64,000 nt of DNA from Parapedobacter koreensis (GTDB lineage Bacteria > Bacteroidota > Bacteroidia > Sphingobacteriales > Sphingobacteriaceae): NCBI RefSeq assembly GCF_900109365.1, contig NZ_FNZR01000010.1, forward strand, positions 62,001 to 126,000. The letters run 5' to 3'. The notes beneath the pieces were generated by a model. That model had not been told where the DNA came from. It made no database searches and saw nothing but the letters and a program-made list of their open reading frames with translations. Of this stretch, positions 29,914 through 40,244 are shown one piece after another. The translations under genes were made by a program, and so were the position numbers. The stretch's first letter is position 1. Each line of letters opens with the position of its first letter.

Positions 29914-31011
29914 ATGCGTGGCTACCATTTCTCACAATATATCCCTACTGCATTGCCCAAAGGTGGTTTTGATGAATTGCTGAAGCTTTTTATGCAACTC
30001 CTACAATATACGGCGGGTGACGCCATGGAGGCGTTGGCTTGGCTCAATGAGCTGGATAAGCAGTACAACCTGACCACGGATGACTACGGCATGGGCGATT
30101 TTATCCAGGATCTCAAAGACAAGGGTTATTTGAGTGACGACCCAGGCTCTGGGCAATTCCGGATTACTGCTAAAAGTGAGCAGACCATCCGCCAATCCGC
30201 CTTGGAAGAAATTTTTGGCAAGTTGCGCAAAAGCGGGCGTGGCAACCATAATAGCAACCTTTCCGGACTGGGGGAGGAAAAAAATGCCGACCGTCGGGAA
30301 TACCAGTATGGGGATAGCTTGGATCAGATTGACATGACCACTTCTATCCATAACGCACAGGTAAATCATGGGATTGGCAATTTCATGCTCACCGAACGAG
30401 ATCTTGAGGTGGAAGAGCGGGATTACAAAACATTGACCTCTACCGTGCTGATGATCGACATTTCTCATAGCATGATACTTTACGGCGAGGATCGCATCAC
30501 GCCTGCCAAAAAAGTAGCAATGGCCTTAGCCGAGCTTATTCAGACTCGCTACCCTAAAGACACCTTGGATATTGTAGTATTTGGCAATGATGCCTGGCCG
30601 ATTAGCATCAAAGATTTGCCTTACCTTCAAGTAGGCCCCTACCATACCAACACGCTGGCTGGGCTTGAGCTGGCTACCGATTTGTTGCGCAGACGCAAGA
30701 CCCACAACAAGCAGATTTTCATGATCACCGATGGAAAGCCAACATGCCTGAAGGAAAATGGCCGTTATTATAAAAATAGCGTAGGCCTTGACCGTAAGGT
30801 AGTCAACAAGACGTTGAATATGGCTGCCCAATGTAAGCGATTGAATATTCCCATTACCACCTTTATGATTGCTCGCGATCCGTACTTGCAGCAATTCGTC
30901 CGTCAGTTCACGGAAACCAACGGCGGAAAAGCATTCTATAGTTCGCTCCAGGGATTAGGTGAATACATTTTTGAAGATTATATTCGCAACCGGAGAAAGA
31001 CGGTAAGGTAG
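29914..31011 (+). CDS. VWA domain protein, partner of a MoxR-like ATPase
   Basis: 365 residues. A helical N-terminal half (1-165) is followed by a von Willebrand factor A domain. The MIDAS motif is VLMIDISHSM (DxSxS), with TLAGLE and MITDGKPT completing the metal site. There is no signal peptide or membrane segment, so it is cytoplasmic. The next plus-strand gene encodes a MoxR/Mg-chelatase-like ATPase, and such pairs work as chaperone-like or cofactor-insertion machines. The target here is unknown. Confidence 0.85.
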   Translation: MRGYHFSQYIPTALPKGGFDELLKLFMQLLQYTAGDAMEALAWLNELDKQYNLTTDDYGMGDFIQDLKDKGYLSDDPGSGQFRITAKSEQTIRQSALEEIFGKLRKSGRGNHNSNLSGLGEEKNADRREYQYGDSLDQIDMTTSIHNAQVNHGIGNFMLTERDLEVEERDYKTLTSTVLMIDISHSMILYGEDRITPAKKVAMALAELIQTRYPKDTLDIVVFGNDAWPISIKDLPYLQVGPYHTNTLAGLELATDLLRRRKTHNKQIFMITDGKPTCLKENGRYYKNSVGLDRKVVNKTLNMAAQCKRLNIPITTFMIARDPYLQQFVRQFTETNGGKAFYSSLQGLGEYIFEDYIRNRRKTVR

Positions 31012-31025
31012 TGGGTGTTGGTGTC

Positions 31026-31110
31026 GATTCAAGCTGTTGCTCCTTAACTGGGTGGGATCCGGTTCGCTTGGCTTCCATCCCCAAGATTTCGTCTGCAACG
31101 GCTTAAATTG
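31026..31110. repeat. Intergenic palindromic repeat, copy A (short)
   Basis: Outer imperfect inverted repeat GATTCAAGCTGTTGC ... GCAACGGCTTAAATTG with a short centre containing GGATCCGGTTCGCTTGG and ATTTCGTCT. It lacks the long middle insert of copies B, D and E. It lies between the VWA and ATPase genes. Confidence 0.7.
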
Positions 31111-31187
31111 GTGGCATTAGAAAACGGTGATCAGTGGTGGAGATCGGTGATCGATAACAATAAAAAATAACGATTTTACAAATAAAC

Positions 31188-32672
31188 ATGACTCATATTC
31201 ACACATTAGGCGAACTCAAACAATCCGGATATCAATACCGTGCCGTAAAGGACGAATTAAGAGCCAATCTCATCAAACAATTGCAAGAAAAAAAAGCTGG
31301 ATTTAAAGGCATCGTCGGCTATGACGATACCGTCATTCCCGAATTACAGACAGCGATTCTTTCCAGGCACAATATCTTGCTGCTGGGATTGCGCGGACAA
31401 GCGAAAACACGTATTGCCCGCTTGATGGTGCATTTATTAGATGAATACGTACCTTATGTGGCCGGAAGCGAACTTTTTGATGATCCGTTGCATCCCATCT
31501 CTTGGTATGCGCGGAACGAAATCCAAACCAAAGGTGATGATACGCCCATCGCTTGGCTGCATCGCTCAGAACGGTATACTGAAAAATTGGCCACCCCGGA
31601 CGTCACCGTGGCCGACCTCGTAGGCGACGTGGATCCCATCAAGGCAGCCACATTGAAGCTGACCTATAATGACGAGCGCGTCATCCACTTCGGATTGATC
31701 CCACGGGCCCATCGGAGCATTTTTGTTATCAACGAATTGCCCGACCTGCAAGCGCGGATACAAGTTGCCCTGTTTAATATGCTACAGGAAAAAGATATCC
31801 AAATACGGGGCTTCAAACTGCGTCTGCCGCTTGATGTCCAGTTTGTATTCACGGCTAACCCGGAGGATTATACCAACCGGGGCTCCATTGTGACACCGCT
31901 GAAGGATCGTATCGAAAGCCAAATATTGACACACTATCCAAAGAATATTGATATTTCCCGCAAAATTACTTTTCAGGAAGCGCGCATAACGCCGGATCAG
32001 CAAACCGCCATCGAAGTAGATGGCCTATTGAAAGACTTGGTCGAACAGGTCGCGTTTGAAGCCCGCGAAAGTGAGTTCATCGATCAGAAATCGGGCGTGT
32101 CTGCTCGTCTTACCATATCAGCGTTTGAAAACCTGGTAAGTGCGGCCGAACGTAGGATGCTGATATCCGGCCAGCGGAAAACCATCGCTCGCCTATCAGA
32201 TTTTGCCGGTATTATACCTGCCATCACCGGAAAAATCGAATTGGTTTATGAAGGTGAGCTGGAAGGGCCTGTACACGTAGCGCATCGCCTAATCGGATCG
32301 GCGGTAAAAACCCTTTTTACGCAATACTTCCCGCATCCCGAGAAGGCAAAAAAGTCCAAAAGTGAAAACCCATACTCATCCATTGTTGATTGGTTCACGA
32401 TGGGCAACCAGCTGGAGCTGACGGATGATCTATCAGATAGCCAATATAAAAAAGCGCTGATGCAAGTACCGGGCCTGCATGCCCTGGTAAAAAAACTTCA
32501 CCCCAAGCTTGCGGAAAGCCAGCAATTGCTGCTGATGGAATTTGTGCTTCATGGATTAGCCGAGTATTCGCAACTCAACAAAAGCTACCTCGATGGAGGA
32601 GTCGTATTTGCGGACATGCTGGGCAGCTTGTTTGACGGCGACTTTGATGATGAGGAGTTTGAAGGAAGGTGA
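31188..32672 (+). CDS. MoxR / Mg-chelatase-like AAA+ ATPase
   Basis: 494 residues. The AAA+ module (about 30-300) has a Walker A-like LLGLRGQAKTR, in which Ala replaces the usual second-last Gly. Walker B-like IFVINELPDL and sensor 1 FTANPEDYTNRG follow. The C-terminal lid and a helical extension run to the end. It resembles the sigma-54-interacting/Mg-chelatase-like ATPases found beside VWA genes. With the upstream VWA protein it would form an ATP-driven remodelling complex; the client is unknown. A palindromic repeat lies between the two genes. Confidence 0.85.
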   Translation: MTHIHTLGELKQSGYQYRAVKDELRANLIKQLQEKKAGFKGIVGYDDTVIPELQTAILSRHNILLLGLRGQAKTRIARLMVHLLDEYVPYVAGSELFDDPLHPISWYARNEIQTKGDDTPIAWLHRSERYTEKLATPDVTVADLVGDVDPIKAATLKLTYNDERVIHFGLIPRAHRSIFVINELPDLQARIQVALFNMLQEKDIQIRGFKLRLPLDVQFVFTANPEDYTNRGSIVTPLKDRIESQILTHYPKNIDISRKITFQEARITPDQQTAIEVDGLLKDLVEQVAFEARESEFIDQKSGVSARLTISAFENLVSAAERRMLISGQRKTIARLSDFAGIIPAITGKIELVYEGELEGPVHVAHRLIGSAVKTLFTQYFPHPEKAKKSKSENPYSSIVDWFTMGNQLELTDDLSDSQYKKALMQVPGLHALVKKLHPKLAESQQLLLMEFVLHGLAEYSQLNKSYLDGGVVFADMLGSLFDGDFDDEEFEGR

Positions 32673-32673
32673 T

Positions 32674-32849
32674 ATTAAAGTGGCTGCTCCTCAACTGGAT
32701 CCGGTGCGCTTCGCGATGCTTTTCCTCTCCTTTCCAAGGCACCTTTGGATGCGCACAAGCAACCTAGGGGGATGAGCGGAGCGAGTCTTCCAGTTGCGTT
32801 GCGTATCCAGGGTGCCGCCATCTCCGCTGCCGTCTCCTAGGTTTCGGCT
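32674..32849. repeat. Intergenic palindromic repeat, copy B (long, core forward)
   Basis: Left arm TGCTCCTCAACTGGATCC and GGTGCGCTTCGC, an insert bounded by inner inverted repeats (GGCACCTTTGGATGCGC at 32739-32754 region and GCGTATCCAGGGTGCC at 32801-32816), and right arm GCCGTCTCCTAGGTTTCG. The 46-base core between the inner repeats (32755-32800) starts ACAAGCAACCTAGG and ends CCAGTTGCGTT. The outer right end is diverged. It begins 1 base after the ATPase stop codon. Confidence 0.8.
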
Positions 32850-32856
32850 TCACCGA

Positions 32857-33333
32857 TCACCATACAAAAGTAGCCTTACGCGTCGGATTATCCAGTTTAG
32901 TGCTTTTTCGTTTGCCGTAGGCTGTTACATGCAAAATATTGCTTTGTTTGGGAAATTGATCAAACAAAATACGGCTGTCTATGACAAGTCGTTGCACCTT
33001 GTCTACATTGCTCACTTCAAGGTAGCACCACGCCACGTCGTCTTCGATTTCGTAGCCAAGGTAGTGCAGCGTTTTCAACTCGCCATCTACGGCAAGCTTG
33101 AATTGCTTCCCGAGGTAATCTGCCAATAAGCTGTCAATCATAGGACGATCAGCAGGACTAATCAAGTCCACATGGGCACTATAAGCCGCTTTGAGGGCAT
33201 CTTCAAGGTCGTCATGGAAGATGCGACAGCTTATTTCCATGGCATGTGTCTTTTCGTTGAAATCTACTGCCGTGATGCTCACATAAAACGGATGGAACAA
33301 TCCTAAAAAAACACTAAAAATTAAACTCAACAT
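32857..33333 (-). CDS. DUF6702 family protein
   Basis: 158 residues starting with a hydrophobic signal-like segment (MLSLIFSVFLGLFHPFYVS) and the family pattern HPFYVSITAVDFN, ISCRIFHDDLEDALKA, GYEIEDDVAWCYLEV and NVDKVQRLVID. DUF6702 proteins are envelope proteins of unknown function in Bacteroidota, often near HupE or M1 peptidase genes, as here. The gene runs divergently from hupE, with 109 bases between them. Confidence 0.88.
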   Translation of the reverse strand: MLSLIFSVFLGLFHPFYVSITAVDFNEKTHAMEISCRIFHDDLEDALKAAYSAHVDLISPADRPMIDSLLADYLGKQFKLAVDGELKTLHYLGYEIEDDVAWCYLEVSNVDKVQRLVIDSRILFDQFPKQSNILHVTAYGKRKSTKLDNPTRKATFVW

Positions 33334-33442
33334 GAAATTTCAAGCCTAACACCGGTATGCTATTGCATTTTTTTTGTTATAGATTGCGTTTTCGCCGCAA
33401 TAAACGTAATATTGTTGCGAATATAACAACAAAACTTTCAAC

Positions 33443-34018
33443 ATGCAGGATTTCGGGGTTTATTTCGAATTAGGTTTACAGCATATCTTAGACCTTTCGG
33501 GATACGACCATATCCTTTTTGTAATTGCGCTTTGTTGTACCTATTTCATAAAAGACTGGCGAAAAGTCACCGTGTTGGTCACGGCCTTTACTGTCGGGCA
33601 TTCGCTTACCTTGGCATTGAGCGTATTTAATCTCGTCCGGGTAGATACGGAACTGATCGAATTACTTATCCCGATCACCATCGTCATCACGGCCTTCAGT
33701 AACGTGGTCAAAAAGCGCCAACGAGCAGCAAATACGGACTGGCTTACATATAGTTACGCCTTGTTTTTCGGGCTCATCCACGGGTTGGGTTTTTCCAATT
33801 ACTTGCGATCGCTATTGGGCAAGGAAAGCAGCATCACCTGGCCATTGTTTGCTTTCAACGTAGGATTGGAGTTGGGTCAGTTGGCTATCGTTTTTGTCGT
33901 TTTGATGGCATCACTTATCGCCACGGGTATCTTTTCCGTATCCAAGCGCGATTGGTCGTTTTTCCTTTCGGCCGCAATTTTCGGCATTGCGTTGATGATG
34001 GCGCTGGAAAGAACGTAG
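33443..34018 (+). CDS. HupE/UreJ family membrane protein
   Basis: 191 residues with about six membrane segments. It opens with the family signature LGLQHILDLSGYDHILFVIALC (here positions 10-31), then FTVGHSLTLALSVF and FFGLIHGLGFSNYLR, whose His residues suggest metal binding. HupE/UreJ proteins are nickel or cobalt permeases; without hydrogenase or urease genes nearby, the substrate is open. The downstream M1 peptidase gene is 90 bases away on the same strand. Confidence 0.9.
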   Translation: MQDFGVYFELGLQHILDLSGYDHILFVIALCCTYFIKDWRKVTVLVTAFTVGHSLTLALSVFNLVRVDTELIELLIPITIVITAFSNVVKKRQRAANTDWLTYSYALFFGLIHGLGFSNYLRSLLGKESSITWPLFAFNVGLELGQLAIVFVVLMASLIATGIFSVSKRDWSFFLSAAIFGIALMMALERT

Positions 34019-34108
34019 TGCCGGGCTGTAAGCTGATTTTGCCCGTGAACTAATATTACTTTTTTATTTTAATTTGTTGAAGAAAGACGAAGCTTAAAGC
34101 AAAACAAT

Positions 34109-36454
34109 ATGAAAAGAAGATTCCATCAATTAGTCATGCTTATCGGATTGGGGCTATACTCCTTCCCGACCGTAGCACAGTATCAAAACAATCCTGGATC
34201 AAACCATGGCAATAAGTTTGAACAATTGGGCACGCTATTGAGCGATCCCAACGTATACCGTACAGCTTCGGGCGCGCCAGGGCACCAGTATTGGCAGCAG
34301 AAGGCCGATTACGTCATCGATGTAGAAGTAGACGACGAAAATCAACGCGTCATCGGCGCTGAAACCATCACCTATACCAACAACTCGCCGGATCCATTGA
34401 ATTACCTCTGGATCCAGTTGGATGAAAACGAGCACAAGGCCGATGCGGAAAACAAGAAATTCGATGAAAGCTCACTCGGCGAACGGGTGACTACCCGTCA
34501 ACTGCAGCAACTCATCGGTGATGATAAAGATTTGGGCGTCAAAATCCTGAAAGTAGCCGATGGTGCGGGCAAAGCACTTCAATACACGATTAATTATACC
34601 ATGATGCGGGTGGAATTGCCTGCCATCCTAAAGCCCGGCGCCAAGTTTGTGCTACAGATTGATTGGCAATACAATATCAGTGATCGTACTACGGAAGGTG
34701 GACGCGGTGGCTATGAGTACTTTGCTGAAGATGGCAATTACCTATACACCATCGCACAATGGTACCCCCGCATGGCCGTATATTCCGACTTCCAAGGTTG
34801 GCAAAACAAGCAATTCACCGGTCGAGGTGAATTTGCGCTGGCATTCGGCGATTTTAAAGTAAATATTACGGTACCGGCCGATCATGTTGTGGGTGCCACG
34901 GGTGAATGCCGTAATTATGCTAACGTACTGACCGCTGCGCAACTGAATCGGTGGCAACAGGCACAGCAGGCCAATGAGCCTGTGGAGGTCGTCACCCTTG
35001 ACGAGGCCAAGCAAGCCATGCAGGGCAAGGCCACGGCTAAGAAAACCTGGATCTATGAAGCCAAAAACGTACGCGACTTTGCTTTCGTCACCTCTCGCCG
35101 CCTGGTGTGGGACGCCATGCGCGTCAAGGAGGGTATTGAAGGAAATACACCCATGGCGATGTCTTACTATGGCCCGGAAGCTTACCCGCTCTACCGTCCT
35201 TACTCCACTAAAGTAGTCGCGCATACCTTGAAAGTATATTCCAAACATACCATCGCCTATCCTTATCCGGTAGCCATCTCTGTAGAAGCTTCCAATGGTA
35301 TGGAATACCCCATGATCTGCTTCAACTATGGGCGTGCAGACAAAGATGGCACCTATTCCGAGGCTACTAAATACGGGATGATTGGGGTAATTATACACGA
35401 AGTGGGCCACAATTTCTTCCCCATGATTGTCAACTCCGACGAGCGGCAATGGACATGGATGGACGAGGGACTTAATACCTTTTGCCAGTTTCTCGCCGAG
35501 CAGGAATGGGATAAGGATTTTCCCTCACGCCGCGGGCCTGCACATAAAATCGCGGATTACATGAAGCTTCCCAAAGACCAGTTGGAGCCCATTATGACCA
35601 ACTCGGAAAACATTGTGCAATTTGGGCCGAATGCATATGCAAAACCAGCAACCGCACTCAATATCCTGCGCGAAACCATCATGGGACGTGAGCTTTTCGA
35701 CTACGCCTTCAAGGAATATTCGCAGCGTTGGGCTTTCAAACATCCCACGCCTGCTGATTTCTTCCGCACCATGGAAGACGCCTCAGCCGTTGATCTCGAT
35801 TGGTTTTGGCGGGGTTGGTTTTTTGGTATAGACCCTGTGGATATTTCCTTGGACGACGTACAGCATTTCCAACCCATGGGGAGTCTGCAGGACGCCCAAG
35901 CTGAGGCTAAGACGGCTTTTGAAAACGACCTGAACACCATTTCCCGTCAGCGTAATATCGAAGAAGGCATCGATTTTGCCGTAGAGGGCGATACTTCTTT
36001 GCAAGATTTTTATAACAAGTGGGATCGTTTTGCCATTGCTGATGAAGATAGGCAGGCATTTGAGCAATACTATGAATCCTTAACGACGGAGGAAAAAGCA
36101 TTGTACGATGGCAAGTACCACTTCTATCAACTCAGCTTCAGTAATAAAGGTGGACTGGTGATGCCCATTTTTATCCAATGGACATTCGCCGACGGCACTA
36201 AGGAAATCGATCGTATACCAGCGTATATTTGGCGTAAAAATGAGCATGAAGTAACCAAGGTCTTTGCTAAAACCAAGGAGGTAAAAGCCATTCTCATCGA
36301 TCCCCTTCGGGAGACAGCAGATATCGACGAAGAGAACAATGCGTGGCCGCGCCAACATACGCCTACGCGGTTTGAATTGTTTAAACAAGGTGCTGGCCCA
36401 GCACGGGGTGCCTCAGCCGGCCCGAACCCCATGCAACGGGCGAGGCAGCAGTGA
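34109..36454 (+). CDS. Secreted M1 family metallopeptidase
   Basis: 781 residues with a signal peptide of about 23 residues. An N-terminal beta domain precedes the thermolysin-like domain. The zinc site is His430-Glu-x-x-His434, followed 18 residues later by Glu453 in MDEGLNTF. The aminopeptidase exopeptidase motif appears as NGMEYP. It should cleave N-terminal residues from peptides outside the inner membrane. The length and motifs match the Bacteroidota group that pairs with DUF6702 and HupE genes. The C-terminus ends in a low-complexity GAGPARGASAG tail. Confidence 0.93.
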   Translation: MKRRFHQLVMLIGLGLYSFPTVAQYQNNPGSNHGNKFEQLGTLLSDPNVYRTASGAPGHQYWQQKADYVIDVEVDDENQRVIGAETITYTNNSPDPLNYLWIQLDENEHKADAENKKFDESSLGERVTTRQLQQLIGDDKDLGVKILKVADGAGKALQYTINYTMMRVELPAILKPGAKFVLQIDWQYNISDRTTEGGRGGYEYFAEDGNYLYTIAQWYPRMAVYSDFQGWQNKQFTGRGEFALAFGDFKVNITVPADHVVGATGECRNYANVLTAAQLNRWQQAQQANEPVEVVTLDEAKQAMQGKATAKKTWIYEAKNVRDFAFVTSRRLVWDAMRVKEGIEGNTPMAMSYYGPEAYPLYRPYSTKVVAHTLKVYSKHTIAYPYPVAISVEASNGMEYPMICFNYGRADKDGTYSEATKYGMIGVIIHEVGHNFFPMIVNSDERQWTWMDEGLNTFCQFLAEQEWDKDFPSRRGPAHKIADYMKLPKDQLEPIMTNSENIVQFGPNAYAKPATALNILRETIMGRELFDYAFKEYSQRWAFKHPTPADFFRTMEDASAVDLDWFWRGWFFGIDPVDISLDDVQHFQPMGSLQDAQAEAKTAFENDLNTISRQRNIEEGIDFAVEGDTSLQDFYNKWDRFAIADEDRQAFEQYYESLTTEEKALYDGKYHFYQLSFSNKGGLVMPIFIQWTFADGTKEIDRIPAYIWRKNEHEVTKVFAKTKEVKAILIDPLRETADIDEENNAWPRQHTPTRFELFKQGAGPARGASAGPNPMQRARQQ

Positions 36455-36457
36455 GGT

Positions 36458-36536
36458 AAATCAAGCAGTTGCTCCTCAACTGGATCCGGTGCGCTTCGCT
36501 GCCGTCTCCTAGGTTTCGTCTGCAACTGCTTGATTT
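36458..36536. repeat. Intergenic palindromic repeat, copy C (short, perfect ends)
   Basis: Perfect 15-base inverted repeat AAATCAAGCAGTTGC (36458-36472) / GCAACTGCTTGATTT (36522-36536). The centre joins the left arm (GGATCCGGTGCGCTTCGC) directly to the right arm (TGCCGTCTCCTAGG), so the middle insert of the long copies is cleanly missing. It starts 4 bases after the M1 peptidase stop, so it may also act as a terminator hairpin. Confidence 0.85.
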
Positions 36537-36558
36537 GATGATGTAGGAATTATTGGGG

Positions 36559-36723
36559 GATTCAAGCAGGCGATCCGCTACTGGATATGGTGCGCTTCGC
36601 GATGCTTTTCCTCTCCTTTCCAAGGCAGCTTTGGATGCGCACAAGCAACCTAGGGGGATGAGCGGAGCGAGTCTTCCAGTTGCGTTGCGTATCCAAAGCT
36701 GCCATCTCCGCTGCCGTCTCCTA
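36559..36723. repeat. Intergenic palindromic repeat, copy D (long, core forward)
   Basis: Left end GGATTCAAGCAGG, insert with inner inverted repeats GGCAGCTTTGGATGCGC (36624-36640) and GCGTATCCAAAGCTGCC (36687-36703), which pair except for one base. The 46-base core has the same orientation as copy B. The right arm is cut short (GCCGTCTCCTA), with no outer right end. Confidence 0.8.
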
Positions 36724-36824
36724 TCGAGATATATAGTCCGTCGTGGGTGGTATGAGTTGTAAGCGGTAGGTCACATGCTTGAAGCCTACAACATAAAGCT
36801 TATCGTATTAAAGGCACATAAGAA

Positions 36825-37898
36825 ATGATCGTACAAGAACAGCAACTAAGGAACTTCACGTATCGTATCTTCAAATCTATCGGATGCCCGGATGCGGATG
36901 CAGTGTTGGCTGCGGATGTGCTCCTTTCGGCCGATTTACGTGGTATCGATTCACATGGCGTGGCTCGCCTCGGCGGCTATGTGCGCCTATGGGAAAATGG
37001 CCGACTCAATCCGACGCCCAATATCTGTGTGGTACATGAGACACCGACTACGGCAACGGTCGACGGCGATGGTGGCTTAGGGTTAGTGGTGGCGTCCTAT
37101 GCGATGAACATTGCCATCGAAAAAGCACGGCAATACGGATCCGGCTGGGTCGCCATCCGCCATTCTAACCATTTTGGTATTGCAGCCTACCACGCACTCA
37201 AAGCAATCGAGCACGATATGATTGGTTATGCGATGACCAATGCCAGCCCTTTGGTGGCTCCTACTTTTTCATCCGAACGGCTATTGGGCACCAATCCGAT
37301 GTGCTATACTTTTCCGGCGGGAAAATATCCGCCGGTAGTCGTAGATATGGCCACTTCAGCGGCCGCCAACGGCAAGCTGGAAATCGCCCAACGCATGAAT
37401 GTCCCTATTCCCGAAGGCTGGGCACTCACACCGGATGGTAAGGCCACCACCGACCCCAATGCGGTGACCACAGGCGGTGCATTACTCCCTTTGGGTAGCG
37501 AATACAATCGTGGCAGCCACAAAGGGTTCGGACTGTCGGCTACTGTAGACATTCTGTCCGGTGTATTGTCTGGTGCCAACTATGGGCCATGGGTACCACC
37601 GTTTGTTGCCTACTTGCAACCCCTGGACGACCAACCGGGCAAAGGTATTGGCCACTTCGTAGGTGCTATGCGCGTAGATGGATTCCGGCCTGTCGCTGAT
37701 TTTAAGGCCAACATCGACCAATGGATCACCCGGTTTAAAAATGCCAAACGGATAAATGAACAACAAAGTGTGATTATCCCCGGCGAGCCGGAGCATCAAG
37801 CAACACAGCATCGCAAAGAACACGGTATTCCGCTAGTCGACGCCGTGTGGGAGAACTTACAGGCATTAGCAGTGAAGCTCGGTGTGGAGATGCTATGA
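36825..37898 (+). CDS. Ldh family oxidoreductase (malate/L-lactate dehydrogenase family)
   Basis: 357 residues of the NAD(P)-dependent MDH/LDH2 family: LRGIDSHGVARLGGYV near residue 40, IRHSNHFGIAAYHALKAIE near 115 (nucleotide and substrate residues), GTNPMCYTFPAG, then KGFGLSATVDILSGVLSG. Family members oxidise malate, lactate, ureidoglycolate or similar 2-hydroxyacids; the substrate cannot be told here. It is flanked by palindromic repeats on both sides and stands alone. Confidence 0.92.
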   Translation: MIVQEQQLRNFTYRIFKSIGCPDADAVLAADVLLSADLRGIDSHGVARLGGYVRLWENGRLNPTPNICVVHETPTTATVDGDGGLGLVVASYAMNIAIEKARQYGSGWVAIRHSNHFGIAAYHALKAIEHDMIGYAMTNASPLVAPTFSSERLLGTNPMCYTFPAGKYPPVVVDMATSAAANGKLEIAQRMNVPIPEGWALTPDGKATTDPNAVTTGGALLPLGSEYNRGSHKGFGLSATVDILSGVLSGANYGPWVPPFVAYLQPLDDQPGKGIGHFVGAMRVDGFRPVADFKANIDQWITRFKNAKRINEQQSVIIPGEPEHQATQHRKEHGIPLVDAVWENLQALAVKLGVEML

Positions 37899-37904
37899 AT
37901 ACAT

Positions 37905-38097
37905 GAATTCAAGCGTTGCTCCTCAACTGGATCCGGTTCGCTTCACTATGCCTTTCCTCTCCTTCTTGAGGCACCTTTGGACACGCAACGCAACTGGAAG
38001 ACTCGCTCCGCTCATCCACCTAGGTTGCTTGTGCGTATCCAAAGTGCCGCCATCTCCGCTACCGTCTCCTAGGTTTCGTCTGCAACCGCCTGAATTC
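37905..38097. repeat. Intergenic palindromic repeat, copy E (long, core inverted)
   Basis: Outer ends GAATTCAAGCGTTGC (37905-37919) and GCAACCGCCTGAATTC (38082-38097), nearly inverted. Inner repeats GGCACCTTTGGACACGC (37970-37986) and GCGTATCCAAAGTGCC (38033-38048). The 46-base core (37987-38032) begins AACGCAACTGGAAG and ends AGGTTGCTTGT: the reverse complement of the copy B core with one mismatch. The arms keep the same orientation as in B, so only the core is flipped. Confidence 0.85.
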
Positions 38098-38106
38098 CAA
38101 TACAGA

Positions 38107-39768
38107 TTATCCGTCACCGAGTCCTATACACTGCTTAGTACCCTCTCGGATGCTGTGCCAAATCATTTTGAAAAAAGAATACGTTGGGTCGCGTACCAAA
38201 TGCACGTTACCTTGATGATATACGCCATTGGCATCAGGGTTGCTATCGTTGACAAGGAATCGGTTGACAAAAAAAGAAACCAGCGATTTACGAGATGTTT
38301 CTCCCGCTTCGTTTTCTCTAAGCATATTCACTTTTAAGTTTTTGTAATCAAACTGCAACGTGCCGCTGGTATGACTGTCATCGGCCTCCATCTCGAAGGT
38401 CATGGTCTGGATATCTGCCCGTTCAATTTCCACATTCATCTGCGGCGTCAGCATCCGGTTAAACGGCTTTCCATCCATCGCACCCACTTTTGCCTGATAC
38501 GTATGTGCCCCCAGACTATCCAACAGGTCAAAGCGAAACTCCACGGTCAGATCGCCTGCACCCATGACTCGCGAGGTTGCGTTAAATTGAAGAAAACGAT
38601 TGCGGGCCAACGCCAAGGAATCATTTGTGACATTCTGCATCAGACCGGCGGTCTCTTCAAACGTCACTGTTCCCGCCTTGGCCGTCTTATCGCTCACCTC
38701 TGTGAAGTTGATATCGAGCGCATTGATCAAAACCGAATCAAGCGCCACCCGCTGCTTCATCCGAAGCAATTGCTGATGTGGCGATTTGCCGATTTTATCT
38801 GTAGGCGGGTTGGGTTGTGTCTTGTCTTTATAAATGGCAATCTCCCCGCTGTCAATACGTAACGTTGATGCCGCTATCGTCTCGGTTTTCACCCAGCTTG
38901 CTAAGTTGACGTCGTTCATAGCTATGCGTGAAATGGCAATGTCTGCAATGTCTTTGGCCAGTCGCACACGGCGGTAAAACTCAGCTTTGCTCACCGTAAG
39001 TCCGTAGCGGAGATTGTGAAGGAACAATTCACGCGTATCTGTTTGGAAGTGCAACAGACCTACCTGCAACCGATAGAGGCTATCCGGCTGGAGAAAGTCT
39101 ATCGAGTTCACATCCAGCTGAATCGCTTTTGCATAATAAAGGCGTGTCGTATCGCGCAGCGACGCTGAATCAATCCTTAAATCTTGTATCGCGAAGTCAA
39201 TATGCGGTATCCGTATATCCATTGCGCTACTGTCGTCCATCATCTCAAATTGACCGCCGTTCAGCTCAATACGATTCACCTGGGTGCCCGTTAACGTCTT
39301 TGCAAGGTTTTCGATAAACCTTTCGGAAGTCGTATCAACGGTTGTGGTATCTTTATCGGGCTGACGATGACGAATGAGCTGTACCGACGGCGTATCAATA
39401 ACAATCGAATTAATATGTACCTTATCCGTGATGAGCAACCGGATCAGACCAACTCCTTTAATTTGAAGGCGACCTATCCGGACGCGATAAGATGCGTCCG
39501 CCGCTCGGTTCGTTCCACCATTACCTTTGTAAGCTAACGTATCTGGTGTAAGGGAGATATTAGTAGCCGTAGCATTGCCGCCTATCAACGACACCTCCAA
39601 ATGGTCATAGTTGAGTTGATAGCGGCCGCCCGTCTCCCGGGCGACAAGGTCTTTCAACTTCACCTCCATCCGGGGTTTCCACCGATGGTTTACATACCAA
39701 TTAATTCCAATGATGATTACGATTAGGCCAGCGGCTATGCCAAGGCCCCATTTCCAAAAGGGCTTCAT
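38107..39768 (-). CDS. AsmA-like envelope protein, copy 2
   Basis: 553 residues, a paralog of the protein at 27804-29594. It has the same opening (membrane segment about 8-26 after KPFWKWGLG), the same KIGKSPHQQLLRMKQ, DSVLINALDINFTEVSDK and NDSNPDANGVYHQG segments and the same TYSFFKMIWHS near the end. It lacks the charged tail of copy 1 and ends at GLGDG. An AsmA-type lipid-transfer or envelope role is inferred. It lies 38 bases after the Rrf2 gene on the same strand and may be co-transcribed with it. Confidence 0.7.
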   Translation of the reverse strand: MKPFWKWGLGIAAGLIVIIIGINWYVNHRWKPRMEVKLKDLVARETGGRYQLNYDHLEVSLIGGNATATNISLTPDTLAYKGNGGTNRAADASYRVRIGRLQIKGVGLIRLLITDKVHINSIVIDTPSVQLIRHRQPDKDTTTVDTTSERFIENLAKTLTGTQVNRIELNGGQFEMMDDSSAMDIRIPHIDFAIQDLRIDSASLRDTTRLYYAKAIQLDVNSIDFLQPDSLYRLQVGLLHFQTDTRELFLHNLRYGLTVSKAEFYRRVRLAKDIADIAISRIAMNDVNLASWVKTETIAASTLRIDSGEIAIYKDKTQPNPPTDKIGKSPHQQLLRMKQRVALDSVLINALDINFTEVSDKTAKAGTVTFEETAGLMQNVTNDSLALARNRFLQFNATSRVMGAGDLTVEFRFDLLDSLGAHTYQAKVGAMDGKPFNRMLTPQMNVEIERADIQTMTFEMEADDSHTSGTLQFDYKNLKVNMLRENEAGETSRKSLVSFFVNRFLVNDSNPDANGVYHQGNVHLVRDPTYSFFKMIWHSIREGTKQCIGLGDG

Positions 39769-39806
39769 TACGATAAGAAACGCGGTAGCGGCTTAAATGT
39801 TTGGTG

Positions 39807-40244
39807 TCAAACATCCAAGGCCAAGCGTTTTTCCTTATCAATAATATCCGCTATGCTGGTATCGTTTAGGATTTGTAGCATGGCATTGCGCACATCAATA
39901 AACGTATCCCGGATGCCACACACTTCTTCCGATTTACATTCATCGCAACTCCGATAGAAATTGAGGCTTACGCAGGGCAACAGCGCGATGGGGCCATCAA
40001 TGAGCCGCATTACCTGCGACAACCGAATATCTTCCGGCGCTTTGTTGAGGTTGTAGCCACCACCAGCTCCCTTTTTGCTATACAGGATTCCGGCATTACG
40101 CATCTCCAACAAAATCTGTTCGAGGAATTTTTTGGGAATACGCTCCTCCTCCGCAATACGTAAAATCTGCATTGGCTCCTTACCGTAATTCCTGCCCAAA
40201 ACAATCAGCGCTTTGATGGCGTATTTAGCTTTTTTGGATAACAT
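39807..40244 (-). CDS. Rrf2 family transcriptional regulator
   Basis: 145 residues from the ATG at 40244. The winged helix (1-85) has MLSKKAKYAIKALIVLG, IPKKFLEQILLEMRNAGIL and SKKGAGGGYNLNK. Four Cys at about residues 91, 100, 103 and 109 could bind an iron-sulfur cluster, as in IscR/NsrR-like regulators. A longer frame to 40304 adds 20 unrelated residues over the promoter. The target genes are unknown; the AsmA-like gene directly downstream is one candidate. Confidence 0.92.
   Translation of the reverse strand: MLSKKAKYAIKALIVLGRNYGKEPMQILRIAEEERIPKKFLEQILLEMRNAGILYSKKGAGGGYNLNKAPEDIRLSQVMRLIDGPIALLPCVSLNFYRSCDECKSEEVCGIRDTFIDVRNAMLQILNDTSIADIIDKEKRLALDV

Follow-up and report, generated by a model that had tools for sequence, protein, structure and literature searches.

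A partly nested family of intergenic hairpins in Parapedobacter and an in-place inversion of its loop between species

The 64,000-nucleotide stretch of Parapedobacter koreensis DNA analysed here (the window, to which all coordinates refer unless a contig or locus is named) contains several copies of an intergenic repeat, one of which carries its core back to front between arms that have kept their direction. Is this arrangement a small switch that flips in living cells, or the trace of another process acting on hairpin DNA? Copy B (32674–32849, + strand) is an outer element with a nested core hairpin (32736–32817, +; a match to covariance model R1 with 95.4 bits) in the orientation denoted Y->X, and its best-folding strand is the + strand. 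Copy D (36559–36723, +) is likewise an outer element with a nested core (36622–36703, +; 100.9 bits) in the Y->X orientation. The outer element of copy E (37905–38097, +) is closed by its own outer stem and oriented as that of B, with the core hairpin (37970–38051, − strand, 92.5 bits on that strand) inverted relative to it. Direct comparison bears out what the preliminary description had reported: the cores of B and D share one orientation, the core of E is the reverse complement (45 of 46 bases identical to B), and the flanking outer sequence has one direction in B and E, to the left as well as to the right. Across the 82-base hairpin, E agrees with B at 67 positions and with D at 72 when it is reverse-complemented, versus 40 and 37 when left unreversed (the best of small shifts), and BLAST aligns E with B twice, once on the + strand (168 bases, 77%) and once on the − strand, within the core (79 bases, 93%). 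The inner inverted repeats said to bound the core do exist (in D, 18 nt with 94% complementarity), and inverted pairs are formed by D/E (75 nt at 95%) and B/E (67 nt at 96%). A core of 46 bp is indeed inverted, but the true inverted stretch is longer than that and extends into the arms. An additional, short copy, C (36460–36534, +), consists of the outer hairpin only, with its own 13-bp stem. The predicted folding of E, D and C is better than that of 200 out of 200 shuffled sequences, and that of B is weaker by the same measure (z = −1.73, 9 of 200 shuffles equally good).

B, C, D and E belong to a genus-level family of hairpin repeats that lie between genes, are REP- or MITE-like in habit and are partly nested. 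A genome-wide search for further copies, which the preliminary description had advised, was carried out by BLAST with B as the query and did reveal them: of its 27 rows, 8 include the core, corresponding to 7 core hairpins since E is hit twice, and the other 19 are confined to outer parts. Core and outer hairpins, as judged by eye, share the plan AACTGG...GCTTCGC or GCTCCGC...CCTAGGTT, and core hairpins are found either nested in outer ones or beside them. An exact scan of the named genomes with the core pattern identified 8 stretches, 3 in Parapedobacter luteus, 2 each in P. defluvii and P. indicus, and 1 in Sphingobacterium haloxyli. The covariance model, built from 18 copies, matched 84 times at E ≤ 0.001, in 6 of the 9 genomes of the genus; at E ≤ 1e-5 the distribution across the taxonomic family was patchy, with matches in 11 of 201 genomes and 4 of 25 genera. 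Once tandem neighbours, partial matches and weak duplicates on the opposite strand had been removed, 94 model matches came down to a tally of 70 sites, in which orthologous sites of two species are counted twice. The Rfam 15 search of positions 31000–40000 of the window gave 2 matches, neither of which reached the gathering score (E was above 2 for both), and in the sections of the Parapedobacter genus paper considered here palindromic repeats appear only as CRISPR (PMC7500135). The repeat family is real, and a hairpin family with a strongly preferred strand and the sense orientation in a gene cassette described below was absent both from Rfam (for that part of the window) and from the open-access literature searched.

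The outer, short type of hairpin has a wider distribution than the core type: a probe taken from the element downstream of L100 (query part 829–912) has matches in 8 of the 9 genomes of the genus, including G001 and G007, two of the three genomes without core matches, while G008 has no match to that part. Many outer-type short hairpins, at least 4 of them with similar flanking DNA, lie on contig C11 of P. koreensis (179318–289724). Core hairpins, whole or partial, also occur in tandem at single sites, three in a row at L067:9306–9610 (P. luteus) and about four at L157:2870–3160 (G002).

Comparison with other species makes it possible to ask whether the core has changed its orientation at a fixed place. 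Gene order around the window is conserved in P. luteus, with 22 colinear matches over 300 bp, 75.7 kb in total, between 142 kb of the P. koreensis contig and 166 kb of P. luteus. Only 2 of 17 minus-strand matches are local, i.e. no more than 800 bases from a long colinear match, and these two fall at B (an 81-bp core at 93.8%) and at E (146 columns at 74%, spanning the element); the other 15 are not local. At the B site of P. luteus an outer-only copy comes first, and after it a separate core hairpin of the opposite orientation. At the E site it has three core hairpins with the same genomic orientation as in E of P. koreensis, and the outer element is reversed; hence it is E of P. koreensis that is odd with respect to its outer element, while B, D and the E of P. 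luteus agree. The cleanest case is an orthologous site of P. indicus (L129) and P. defluvii (L145), whose flanks are colinear (78% over 1.5 kb) and whose arms form a 19-bp inverted repeat in which only the outermost base in P. defluvii departs from perfection. Between the arms lies a 34-nt loop that matches at 33 of 34 positions once inverted and at 9 of 34 as it stands. This is an in-place inversion of the loop between species, and it is the only clean and exact one.

Altogether eight orthologous cores, each comparison resting on one genome per species, were compared (B, E, L068/L069, L142/L153, L134/L138, L129/L145, L132/L143 and L122/L139), a set that leaves aside the cassette loci, L106/L157 (hairpins unalignable) and L130/L146 (a gene insertion versus an array). 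Two cores (B and L129/L145) are inverted relative to the genes, at one site (E) the outer element alone is inverted, and five are unchanged, so that flips are real but not constant. One could suspect that assembly programs place palindrome-bounded loops in an arbitrary orientation, as the arms are true inverted repeats and our analysis rests on assemblies; this is highly improbable, since arms of 17–19 bp are below the usual assembly k-mers and a core hairpin of about 80 bp would fit within one read.

A different reading of the same arrangements is that core hairpins entered outer elements independently and in either direction, E then being an opposite insertion rather than an inversion. Hairpin sites are indeed gained or lost between species, and some are empty in relatives. 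The C/D stretch is missing from the orthologous gap of P. luteus, and P. defluvii lacks the P. indicus hairpin L128. No counterpart of the P. luteus hairpin L108 is present in the aligned gaps of P. koreensis, P. defluvii and G003, and the L108 site in G002, G007 and G008 is a short gap with no visible hairpin (in G005 and G001 the flanks are kilobases apart and hence uninformative). Core copies also occur beside outer-type elements (C14:256491 and C7:522226), and both core orientations are found relative to genes. Yet in B and E bases of the same orientation flank the core on both sides, which places the switch points inside or at the arms, and in the P. indicus/P. defluvii pair arms and flanks match around the inverted loop; as a general explanation, independent insertion is therefore unlikely. 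For B in particular the difference from P. luteus may reflect re-insertion rather than a flip, because the core hairpin of P. luteus stands apart there, beside the outer-only element.

What process could turn the loop around and leave everything else in place? Because the arms are complementary, the spacer is inverted and the flanks are untouched, we favour a replication-linked inversion through the arms: the loops of this hairpin family probably invert in place by template switching, on an evolutionary time scale and without programmed control. Each copy has base-paired arms surrounding a conserved asymmetric loop, and such arms, being closely spaced inverted repeats, would allow the loop between them to be inverted occasionally. 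The likeliest route would be template switching between the arms during replication, which could also preserve their complementarity, and the outcome would be a reversed loop within unchanged flanks. Both consequences, homogenisation of the arms and inversion of the spacer, have been described for template switching at inverted repeats in yeast (PMC8604942) and in rRNA hairpins (PMC8794818), although in the portions of these papers considered here the inversions are much shorter, involving 2–5 substitutions in yeast and up to 7–8 nt in rRNA loops.

The arms of the Parapedobacter hairpins differ among copies and yet stay paired (95.5% of 485 cells, compared with 32–49% for slid controls), and 11 of 27 arm pairs have changed on both sides; 0 of 500 shuffles were as high. 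The test comprises 18 related sequences, in which changes are not equivalent to independent events. Recombination between the arms within one molecule, whether or not it depends on RecA, is expected to give the same inverted product, and arms of 17–19 bp around loops of at least 34 nt would provide for it, but taken alone it does not account for arms that have stayed complementary. Moreover, 17–19 bp is a very short homology for RecA, which counts against this route, and we regard it as rather unlikely. The preference for template switching has its limit, as its product is here indistinguishable from that of other recombination between the arms or of a recombinase acting in trans.

Selection on a folded strand would give the same picture of paired arms, and the two strands are far from equivalent. 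The strand with the core as in B and D has an alignment energy of −39.5 kcal/mol, versus −15.8 kcal/mol for the other strand; the same strand folds better singly at 67 of 68 sites, by 9.0 kcal/mol on average (L121 and L106:850 of the 70 sites were excluded from folding). Mispairs are lopsided as well (68 G.T versus 10 A.C cells). A wobble bias of this kind suggests that one of the strands folds, either as RNA or as single-stranded DNA, although it may partly be inherited from a single founder. A strand-blind DNA process alone would not give these strand-asymmetric mispairs, so selection on one folded strand may account for the paired arms instead. The apex of the hairpin reads GCGNAGC at 29 of the 68 sites; minihairpins of the GCGNAGC type are unusually stable in DNA.

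The preliminary description saw in the layout either an invertible segment or a hairpin that had recombined through its arms, and suggested that flipping in living cells would make the repeat a small switch at several intergenic sites. The second option, recombination through the arms, is supported by the inverted product at L129/L145 and by the opposite core orientation at B in P. luteus, there in a changed context, whereas the programmed switch is unproven and unlikely. A mini-inverton of this sort would require a site-specific recombinase that recognises the arms by a conserved sequence and turns the loop over. Its appeal lies in the motif TTGGATRYGCA, found in most arms at flipped sites (it is missing from the left arm of E and the right arm of B), in the occurrence of flips at more than one site, and in an outer-type hairpin (C14:457774–457822) situated about 110 bp from a tyrosine-recombinase gene (C14:457936–458442) that is the best-scoring such match of the genome. 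The conserved motif, however, may simply be the stem of the family. Among the 6 tyrosine (PF00589) and 2 serine/resolvase (PF00239) recombinase matches of the P. koreensis genome none is on contig C17, which carries the window, although an enzyme might act in trans on the arm motif. Invertons of Bacteroidetes have inverted repeats around an invertible promoter, and the typical segment is larger than the Parapedobacter core. The two systems share inverted repeats around an invertible intergenic segment, but the promoter motif TAnnTTTG is absent from both strands of B, C, D and E. Finally, orientation relative to the genes is kept in 6 of the 8 orthologous core comparisons, and outside the cassettes there is no clear orientation preference (16 tandem-sense and 12 tandem-anti sites). 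Taken together, these observations make the programmed mini-inverton very unlikely.

Several candidates for the mobilisation of the element were considered. The hairpins resemble REP elements in being intergenic, in their varying stems, in forming clusters and in their patchy distribution, as far as the consulted part of the description of REP/RAYT systems goes, where REPs are palindromes tagged with GTAG/CGTC and associated with RAYT transposases (PMC3733652). In contrast to REPs, the Parapedobacter arms are longer, and GTAG occurs near either end at 6 of 68 sites and is absent from 62. The Y1 transposase domain (PF01797) was found neither in P. koreensis nor in any of the six genomes of the genus that carry the hairpins; its one match among the 9 genomes, in G007, contains 3 stops, in a genome without core-hairpin matches. 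Since the carriers are without a Y1 transposase, the REP/RAYT origin was rejected. An Rpn-type nuclease (PDDEXK_2, PF12784) was considered as a mobiliser because one copy in P. indicus is flanked by inverted hairpins, and was rejected since PF12784 occurs also in G007 and G008, both without core matches. The P. indicus gene lies between its two inverted hairpins at L130:3025–4286; the same place in P. defluvii (L146:3002–3500) has no PDDEXK_2 gene and contains a tandem array of about 6 hairpins with a period near 77 bp.

The genomic setting was tallied with a home-made, hexamer-based gene picker, with orthologous sites counted twice. The 57 sites outside cassettes comprise 17 divergent, 16 tandem-sense, 12 tandem-anti and 11 convergent sites and 1 inside a gene, with no clear orientation preference relative to genes; there is no bias to gene 3' ends, and the idea of an intrinsic or bidirectional terminator was abandoned. 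At the remaining 13 loci (L102:2572–4718 on contig C19 of P. koreensis, L112, L123, L124, L131, L140, L141, L144, L147, L148, L149, L150 and L152) the hairpin lies within a cassette of a DUF6266 protein, a DUF5675 protein and two small proteins. DUF5675 was located in 11 of them, and there the main hairpin sits between DUF5675 and the small proteins. The main hairpin is sense-oriented in 13 of 13 cassette loci, which are homologous and hence do not represent 13 independent cases; L123, L124, L147 and L150 have weaker additional matches on the opposite strand. The small proteins have no Pfam match (one is holin-like by eye only), and the open-access literature search on DUF6266 found nothing. 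The cassette, which is multicopy and present at many sites across the genus, may be a mobile or phage-derived unit. It was rejected as the sole source of the hairpins, as DUF5675 occurs in 9 of 9 genomes and core hairpins in 6 of 9. Could the strand preference and the cassette be parts of one system? Conceivably, the hairpins could form a transposase-less, strand-specific family in which one strand, as RNA or single-stranded DNA, is functional or mobile, serving as a fixed RNA part in the DUF6266/DUF5675 cassettes, with spreading between genes via a trans-acting system, and with a loop that flips in cells often enough to move the strong hairpin from one neighbouring transcript to another; we consider this combination speculative and doubtful.

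In-place inversion of a loop is a known kind of event; the bacterial setting is unusual and the loops are larger than in the published cases. As far as the consulted parts of the yeast and rRNA studies show (PMC8604942, PMC8794818), the likeness lies in short, complementary arms, a spacer inverted in place and intact flanks, and the difference in the size of the loops (at least 34 nt here, a few bases there) and in the Parapedobacter hairpins being a dispersed and partly nested family. The plastid trnH-psbA spacer likewise is an intergenic palindrome with inversions both between and within species, but, in the part of that report considered, a single plastid locus rather than a multicopy bacterial family (PMC2903610). 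The arrangement of an inverted core within the same arms need not mean a phase switch, and caution is needed when it is met elsewhere. In Parapedobacter, nature provides a dispersed set of bacterial hairpins whose loop inversions, tens of bases long, can be read by comparing species, so that inversion of the spacer and pairing of the arms become open to study in the same material.
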